A stretch of 43,540 nt of DNA from an uncultured Actinomycetes bacterium (GTDB taxonomy: Bacteria > Actinomycetota > Acidimicrobiia > Acidimicrobiales > Microtrichaceae): contig CAIPVR010000237.1 of NCBI GenBank assembly GCA_903868545.1, positions 1 through 43,540 on the forward strand, read 5' to 3'. Position 1 is the first letter of the stretch, and each line of letters opens with the position of its first letter. Positions 33,380 to 34,667 of this stretch are shown here, piece by piece. The notes under the pieces are model-generated. The model did no database searches. It was not told the DNA's origin and was given only the letters and a program-made list of their open reading frames with translations. The position numbers and the translations under genes are program-made.

Positions 33380-33805
33380 CTATTCGTCGGTGGTGGAGGG
33401 GCGGCGGCGGGCCTGCTTGGTCTCGGACCGGCGACGCTTGGACTCGAGCCGCCGGGTCTGTGACCCGCGCGTCGGCCGGGTCGAGGTCCTCGGTCGCGGC
33501 GCCGTCATCGCGTTGCGCAGCCGGGCGGCGAGCCGTCGGCGGGCGAGCGCCCGGTTGCGGTGCTGCGAGCGCTCGTCGTCGGCCACCACCCGCAGCTCGG
33601 GGCCGAACCTCGCCACGAGCCGCTCCCGCTGGGCGTCGGAGAAGGTGGGGCACACGGTGAGGTCGAGGCGCAGCTCCACACGCGTGCTCGAGCGGTTGGC
33701 GTGCTGACCGCCCGGTCCGCCCGACGGGGTGAAGCGCTCCTCGAGGCACCACGCCGGCACCACGAGGCCCGGTCGGATCTCGAGCGGCTCGTCGGGCGGG
33801 GGCAC
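33380..33805 (-). CDS. arfB: peptidyl-tRNA hydrolase ArfB-type ribosome rescue factor
   Basis: FTPSGGPGGQHANRSSTRVELRLDL GGQ motif; basic C-terminal tail. Confidence 0.88.
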   Translation of the reverse strand: MPPPDEPLEIRPGLVVPAWCLEERFTPSGGPGGQHANRSSTRVELRLDLTVCPTFSDAQRERLVARFGPELRVVADDERSQHRNRALARRRLAARLRNAMTAPRPRTSTRPTRGSQTRRLESKRRRSETKQARRRPSTTDE

Positions 33806-33811
33806 CGGGGG

Positions 33812-33821
33812 AGGGTACCGT
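33812..33821. promoter_or_regulatory. symmetric bidirectional -10 (minus TACCCT / plus TACCGT sharing the same TA step)
   Basis: AGGGTACCGT: plus TACCGT 33816-33821 is 6 nt from GTG 33828; minus TACCCT 33817-33812 is 6 nt from GTG 33805. Confidence 0.6.
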
Positions 33822-33827
33822 CGGCCG

Positions 33828-34667
33828 GTGCTGAGCGATCCGGCCGGAGCCCTCGCGGCGTTGGACCCCGCCGCCCGCGCCTACCTGGACCTGCTGATGC
33901 GGTGCCTCACCCGGGAGGCGTTCCTCGACCAGGAGTGGTGGGACGCGGACCTGCGCGACTGGCCCGGGGGCCGCGACGCGGTGCTCCCCCTCCTGCGCGA
34001 GCGTGACTGGCGCGTCGTGCGCCGCGGCGACCCGGCGGCCCGGGCCGAGGGACGGGACTGGCCGCCCACGGCCGAGACGATGATCGGCACCGCTCGGCTG
34101 GCCAACGTGGCGGAGTGCTGCGTCGCCGCACTGCGCGACGGCGTGCCGGGCGACCTGGTCGAGACCGGCGTGTGGCGCGGTGGCACCACCGTGCTGATGC
34201 GCGGTGTGCTCGCCGCGCTGGGCGACCAGGACCGCCGGGTGTGGGTGGCCGACAGTTTCGAGGGCCTGCCGGTGCCCGACGAGCGGTACCCGGCGGACGC
34301 CCACCTCGACTGGTCGGACGTGGAGGTGCTCAAGGTCGACGCCGACGCGGTGCGCGCCAACTTCGACCGCTACGGGCTGCTCGACGACCGGGTGCGCTTC
34401 CTCGAGGGCTGGTTCGCCGACACACTGCCCGGCGCACCGATCGAACGACTCGCGGTCCTGCGCCTCGACGGTGACCTGTACGGCTCCACCATGGACGCGC
34501 TCACGGCGCTCGAGCCGAAGGTGGCCCCCGGCGGCTTCGTGCTGGTGGACGACTACGGCGGGTGGCCGTCGTGCCGGGAGGCGGTGGAGGACTACCGGGC
34601 GGCGCAGGGCATCGACGCCCCGATCCACGAGGTGGACTGGACCGGCGTGTGGTGGCGCAAGCCCTGA
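33828..34667 (+). CDS. TylF/MycF-family (macrocin O-methyltransferase-like) methyltransferase
   Basis: GDLVETGVWRGGTTVLMRGVLAAL, WVADSFEGLPVPD, LRLDGDLYGSTMDAL, VDDYGGWPSCREAVEDY. Confidence 0.88.
   Translation: MLSDPAGALAALDPAARAYLDLLMRCLTREAFLDQEWWDADLRDWPGGRDAVLPLLRERDWRVVRRGDPAARAEGRDWPPTAETMIGTARLANVAECCVAALRDGVPGDLVETGVWRGGTTVLMRGVLAALGDQDRRVWVADSFEGLPVPDERYPADAHLDWSDVEVLKVDADAVRANFDRYGLLDDRVRFLEGWFADTLPGAPIERLAVLRLDGDLYGSTMDALTALEPKVAPGGFVLVDDYGGWPSCREAVEDYRAAQGIDAPIHEVDWTGVWWRKP

Follow-up and report, generated by a model that had tools for sequence, protein, structure and literature searches.

The divergent genes arfB and tylF, which face each other within a 43,540-nucleotide stretch of DNA from an uncultured actinomycete of the Microtrichaceae (the window), very probably share a bidirectional promoter that is leaderless on both sides, a compact form of a known promoter class with economy of space as its likeliest function, judging from the sequence of the junction and of its relatives. 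An earlier note on this DNA had described divergent GTG codons at 33805 and 33828, separated by 22 bp and each preceded at 6 nt by a hexamer, TACCGT or TACCCT, with a common TA dinucleotide, and the sequence agrees with this description. The broader claim that this is a divergent, leaderless, TA-sharing bidirectional promoter gains support, with transcription start sites (TSSs) that are predicted, from a footprint in eight species, a genome-wide peak of -10 elements at the corresponding spacing, and recurrence of the design at other gene pairs.

The arfB/tylF junction

The arfB product scores 118.2 bits against the NCBIfam equivalog model NF006718 (cutoff 100), is also matched by Pfam RF-1, and contains the GGQ motif (as GPGGQHAN) and a basic, Arg/Lys-rich C-terminal tail; the score above cutoff, the motif, and the tail place it in the ArfB (YaeJ) family. 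Its GTG is the first arfB start codon past the preceding in-frame stop. The product of the opposite gene matches positions 2-264 of the 264-position Pfam profile PF05711 with 334.6 bits, a full-profile match to the TylF (macrocin O-methyltransferase) family, and MycF and NovP are among its relatives with a solved structure. By profile, the protein would thus be a member of the TylF family, and O-methylation of a sugar or macrolide is its putative activity. An upstream in-frame GTG for tylF is found at 33729, within the antisense of arfB; however, the tylF genes of relatives start at the same place as GTG 33828, beside the conserved core.

The entire intergenic gap is the 22-bp segment 33806-33827, bounded by the start codons of the two genes. 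Positions 33803-33830 read CAC CGGGGG AGGGTACCGT CGGCCG GTG, where CAC occupies 33803-33805, AGGGTACCGT occupies 33812-33821, and GTG occupies 33828-33830 (Table 1). The ten central bases contain TACCGT on one strand and TACCCT on the other, overlapping through their common TA, the configuration of the symmetric -10 bidirectional promoter class. Both genes have the leaderless configuration of a TANNNT element with its first T some 12 nt upstream of the start codon, and no Shine-Dalgarno sequence was seen before the arfB start.

Table 1. Features of the arfB/tylF junction and of a second shared-TA junction
Feature	Position	Strand	Remarks
arfB, alternative ribosome-rescue aminoacyl-tRNA hydrolase, 141 aa	33380..33805	-	GTG start at 33805
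TylF-family O-methyltransferase-like gene, 279 aa	33828..34667	+	GTG start at 33828
Conserved bidirectional core AGGGTACCGT (ANNNTANNNT)	33812..33821		97.5% mean pairwise identity in 8 species; flanking spacers 42-48%
Predicted -10 of tylF, TACCGT	33816..33821	+	6 nt ahead of GTG 33828; fits the 6-8 nt leaderless peak
Predicted -10 of arfB, TACCCT	33812..33817	-	6 nt ahead of GTG 33805; spacing constant in 8/8 paired core species
TA step common to both -10 elements (-12/-11 of both promoters)	33816..33817		From sequence; invariant in 8 species
Predicted TSS of tylF, on the first G of its start codon	33828	+	From -10 spacing
Predicted TSS of arfB, on the first G of its start codon	33805	-	From -10 spacing
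Deformylase/methyltransferase loci	G000:C154:11926-11955 (own genome)		L261-L289 and L216

In the mechanism that we propose, AGGGTACCGT would act as a sigma-70-type bidirectional core in which two -10 elements overlap by one TA step, and RNA polymerase would be able to bind it in either orientation. In the forward orientation, melting would proceed rightward and transcription would start at G33828 to give a leaderless tylF mRNA; in the reverse orientation, melting would proceed leftward and a start at 33805 would give a leaderless arfB mRNA. With one TSS on each start codon, the predicted TSS separation is 23 bp. The open complexes would extend from the shared TA over about 33817-33829 for tylF and 33816-33804 for arfB, and because each melts from the TA in its own direction, the two bubbles would differ and have only the TA step in common; the "one melted bubble" envisaged previously does not fit this geometry. 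Each hexamer would, through its inner bases, also supply positions -15 to -13 of the promoter on the other strand (CGG precedes TACCCT and GGG precedes TACCGT), an overlap that may account for the retention at arfB/tylF of the whole 10-mer rather than of A...TA...T only. The sequence, its conservation, the -10 peak across the genome, and the recurrence of the design are observed, and we infer that the TSSs lie at the two GTG codons, that the mRNAs are translated without leaders, that both directions are active, and that the arrangement was selected for its economy, the most likely function being the plain one of giving two leaderless housekeeping-type genes one promoter each in the smallest space.

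Conservation of the core and natural controls

The two genes are divergent and adjacent in 10 of 33 family genomes, and the genomes compared are mostly draft assemblies. The core is unchanged in eight of those ten (the window, G004, and G026-G031), except for a single G-to-A change in G026; the eight species span three genera, with six of them in one genus. Mean pairwise identity among the eight is 97.5% for the core and 42% and 48% for the two flanking spacers, compared with 49-51% at fourfold-degenerate sites of arfB and tylF, so the spacers look neutral while the core is held. The A and T at the outer ends of the core are invariant across the eight species. On the arfB side all eight have a spacing of 6 nt; on the tylF side only the window and G031 do, the other six having 7 nt, and because the tylF spacing varies in this way, exact mirror symmetry is not under selection. 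The earlier note had called the junction "perfectly symmetric," which describes only these two species; the conservation of the symmetric hexamers in related genomes, which it had named as a check, held for the core and the TA step but not for the 6/6 spacing.

In G004, an ATG lies 7 nt from the core but one base out of the tylF frame, so that seven of the eight core species are cleanly in frame. The tylF frame at this locus (L084/L112; G004:C1, near 3248882) is without a start codon at the promoter, and the ATG lies in a C-rich stretch; the shift, which counts against the promoter reading, is either an assembly error or a real frameshift.

The same comparison bears on whether the core serves only one direction, with the other gene having a different promoter or a leader with a Shine-Dalgarno sequence. 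Consistent with such an arrangement, GGAGGG occupies 33810-33815, 12 nt upstream of the GTG of tylF, and in G002 and G003, where arfB and tylF are separated by 115-170 bp, the core is missing and a GGGGAGAG stretch lies directly upstream of the tylF start. However, GGAGGG is altered in four of the eight species (to CGAGGG, GCAGGG, or GGAGAG) and lies 12 nt from the start, both outer bases of the core are invariant, and the arfB start is constant at 6 nt in all eight, which makes use in a single direction unlikely.

Copies of arfB that are not paired with tylF provide natural controls for the bidirectional reading. The A located four bases upstream of the arfB -10, which is the outer base of the opposite -10, is found in 8/8 arfB genes paired with tylF through the core versus 3/29 other leaderless-looking arfB genes (Fisher 4.3e-6, a guide only, as the sequences are related and some genomes are possibly counted twice). 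arfB genes without a tylF partner are mostly without the opposite -10 half. One of the three exceptions, which counts against the bidirectional reading, is in G005: both halves are retained there although arfB and tylF are no longer opposite each other. In G024 the two genes have come to be separated by others; tylF there retains TACCGT 8 nt before its ATG, and the arfB half is without its outer base (CGGGTA for AGGGTA).

Two loci from this set carry further details. In L063, another of the three exceptions, arfB lies opposite a 72-aa DUF6457 gene through a shared-TA junction, CATGGCCCGACCCTACGCTGGGAGCATG (near 1046-1073, arfB orientation). The frames between arfB and tylF in G024 (G024:C61, L114, about 200-1400) are epimerase-like and glutaredoxin-like, from translations read by eye.

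Many of the family genomes gave no match to tylF. An order-wide search gave more distant tylF relatives, and no arfB was detected in the flanks retrieved with them; an ancient arfB/tylF link was set aside for this reason. Two records titled Bifidobacterium breve (L003 and L004) have arfB positions identical to those of G009:C112 and G010:C44 from the family of the window, and the titles look wrong.

Leaderless promoters and shared-TA junctions elsewhere

A TANNNT element about 12 bp upstream of the start is known to mark leaderless genes in Actinobacteria (PMC3160421, 2011), and TANNNT leaderless genes are also found in Mycobacterium tuberculosis (PMC3898074, 2013), where CGN or SRN often stands directly upstream of the -10 element (PMC3898074), as CGG does here for arfB and GGG for tylF. 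In a sample of 1.2 Mb from G004, a relative assembled as a single contig (73% GC), a simple coding-potential caller gave 1040 genes. TANNNT was located 6, 7, or 8 nt before the candidate start in 66, 85, and 57 of these genes, respectively, about 20% in all, compared with 13 and 9 genes at spacings of 9 and 10 nt and 0-10 genes at the other spacings from 0 to 30 nt. Because TANNNT precedes about a fifth of the starts at this distance, leaderless -10 promoters are normal in this group, and the peak agrees with the leaderless genes reported from Actinobacteria and M. tuberculosis. The logo of the leaderless-type promoters in the sample had no clear -35, and TACCGT and TACCCT were both among the common -10 hexamers, TACCGT being one of the most frequent at this position.

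The junction pattern by itself is not significant: the strict 28-base pattern has one match in the 3.69-Mb genome from which the window comes, as does its reversed control, and rarity was dropped as proof of design. This equal frequency is what favors a chance arrangement in a GC-rich genome. Against it, the core is kept in eight species despite diverged spacers, and the shared-TA design is found again at other gene pairs, so that coincidence is extremely improbable; in these sequence comparisons it is conservation and recurrence, not rarity, that put the junction beyond chance.

Recurrence was assessed with a relaxed shared-TA pattern, CAYN{6,7}ANNNTANNNTN{6,7}RTG, counted against a control. 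The own genome of the window gave 8 matches versus 2 for the control, G004 gave 6 versus 0, and G028 gave 12 versus 0; the tallied tylF-carrying genera together gave 93 versus 20, a descriptive figure as the tally was picked after the counts were seen. Pooling all 33 family genomes reduced this to a small excess (187 versus 146), strong in part of the family only. Among 120 genomes of the phylum the excess was modest (1005 versus 774) and many genomes showed none, and the design was therefore rejected as universal. Seven of the eight matches in the own genome are divergent gene pairs by coding potential, and the pairs with Pfam assignments include peptide deformylase/MTS methyltransferase, enoyl-CoA hydratase/DUF5317, UDG/histidine phosphatase, and VIT1/P-type ATPase. 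In the G004 sample, 19 divergent pairs have a leaderless -10 on both sides; two of them share the TA step, and no other offset recurs.

The deformylase/methyltransferase junction (Table 1) was traced through 30 family loci; 22 of them have the shared-TA core, and in 21 each of the two starts is in frame. Its A, TA, and T are invariant and its inner bases vary (ACGGTAGCCT, ACGGTACTCT, ACGGTATCCT), with 90% identity in the core and 39-43% in the spacers; at the level of sequence, this footprint shows the constraint expected from two overlapping TANNNT elements. At one of these loci (L286, G027:C2:36779-37372), the methyltransferase match beside deformylase has one in-frame TGA in the assembly.

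These pairs also bear on the possibility that the arfB/tylF core is a palindromic operator with a GGTACC centre, bound by a repressor or activator of both genes, and that its match to -10 elements is incidental. The core is indeed nearly palindromic, with CGGAGGGTACCGTCCG or a near match to it in several species, and all ten of its bases are conserved. An operator is nonetheless quite improbable: the other shared-TA pairs keep A...TA...T only, with different inner bases; the distance to both start codons fits the genome-wide leaderless -10 peak; and the 1.2 Mb sampled from G004, a portion without the arfB/tylF locus, contains no copy of the 10-mer, so no regulon is evident in that portion. Returning to the promoter reading, we tentatively raise the possibility that shared-TA double-leaderless promoters are a conserved class of their own among the high-GC members of the family, with a few per genome and start codons fixed 22-25 bp apart, and that they hold gene pairs such as deformylase/methyltransferase and arfB/tylF together over several genera and tie their expression or noise to alternating use of the site.

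Known promoter classes and the question of mutual exclusion

Bidirectional promoters with symmetric -10 elements have been described by Warman, Grainger and colleagues (PMC12825309), and the junction resembles them in the overlap of -10 elements on opposite strands; the common TSS separations in that report are 10, 18, and 23 bp, and the 23 bp predicted here falls in a common class. It differs from those promoters in that both predicted TSSs lie on start codons, the gap is only 22 bp, and the flanks of the promoter lie in coding sequence. The likeness to leaderless genes (PMC3160421, PMC3898074) extends to TANNNT 6-8 nt before GTG or ATG and to the lack of a clear -35, but the available text of those reports takes genes singly and does not describe two leaderless genes with a common -10. 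"Closely juxtaposed divergent promoters" are described in M. tuberculosis (PMC3898074), and prpD (Rv1130) and Rv1129c are divergent neighbors that are both leaderless, with no common -10 stated in the portion of that report available to us. By title and abstract, and with partial coverage, literature joining "leaderless" with "bidirectional promoters" did not contain the shared-TA design. Judged by this literature, bidirectional promoters and leaderless genes are each known, and what would be new is their union in a shared-TA junction.

By uniting leaderless genes with symmetric bidirectional promoters, the arrangement forms about the smallest divergent gene junction possible, and mutations within ten bases of core would affect two genes at once. 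If the TSSs are confirmed, the sequence rule CAY-N6/8-ANNNTANNNT-N6/8-RTG could be used to correct start-codon annotation and may explain why some unrelated gene pairs remain together, and the junctions would provide a natural promoter set for studying, free of 5′ UTR effects, how polymerases compete and how noisy expression is.

The earlier note also read built-in mutual exclusion between ribosome rescue and the methyltransferase into the junction. From the geometry, two polymerases cannot occupy the core simultaneously, and this steric exclusion, together with the competition that arises at known bidirectional promoters once one direction is strongly activated (PMC12825309), would favor a true switch in which the firing of one gene excludes the other and ribosome rescue is coupled to methyltransferase shut-off. 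However, the five E. coli bidirectional promoters tested in the available part of that report were, at their basal activity, too weak for competition, and it arose only under strong activation (PMC12825309); the deformylase/methyltransferase, enoyl-CoA hydratase/DUF5317, and UDG/phosphatase pairs suggest no antagonism; and the lack of a tylF match in many family genomes also speaks against a coupling. We consider a switch highly unlikely, and mutual exclusion as a purpose was set aside on the basis of PMC12825309, as far as its available text goes, and of the identities of the other shared-TA pairs. Space economy accounts for the shared-TA design without a switch.
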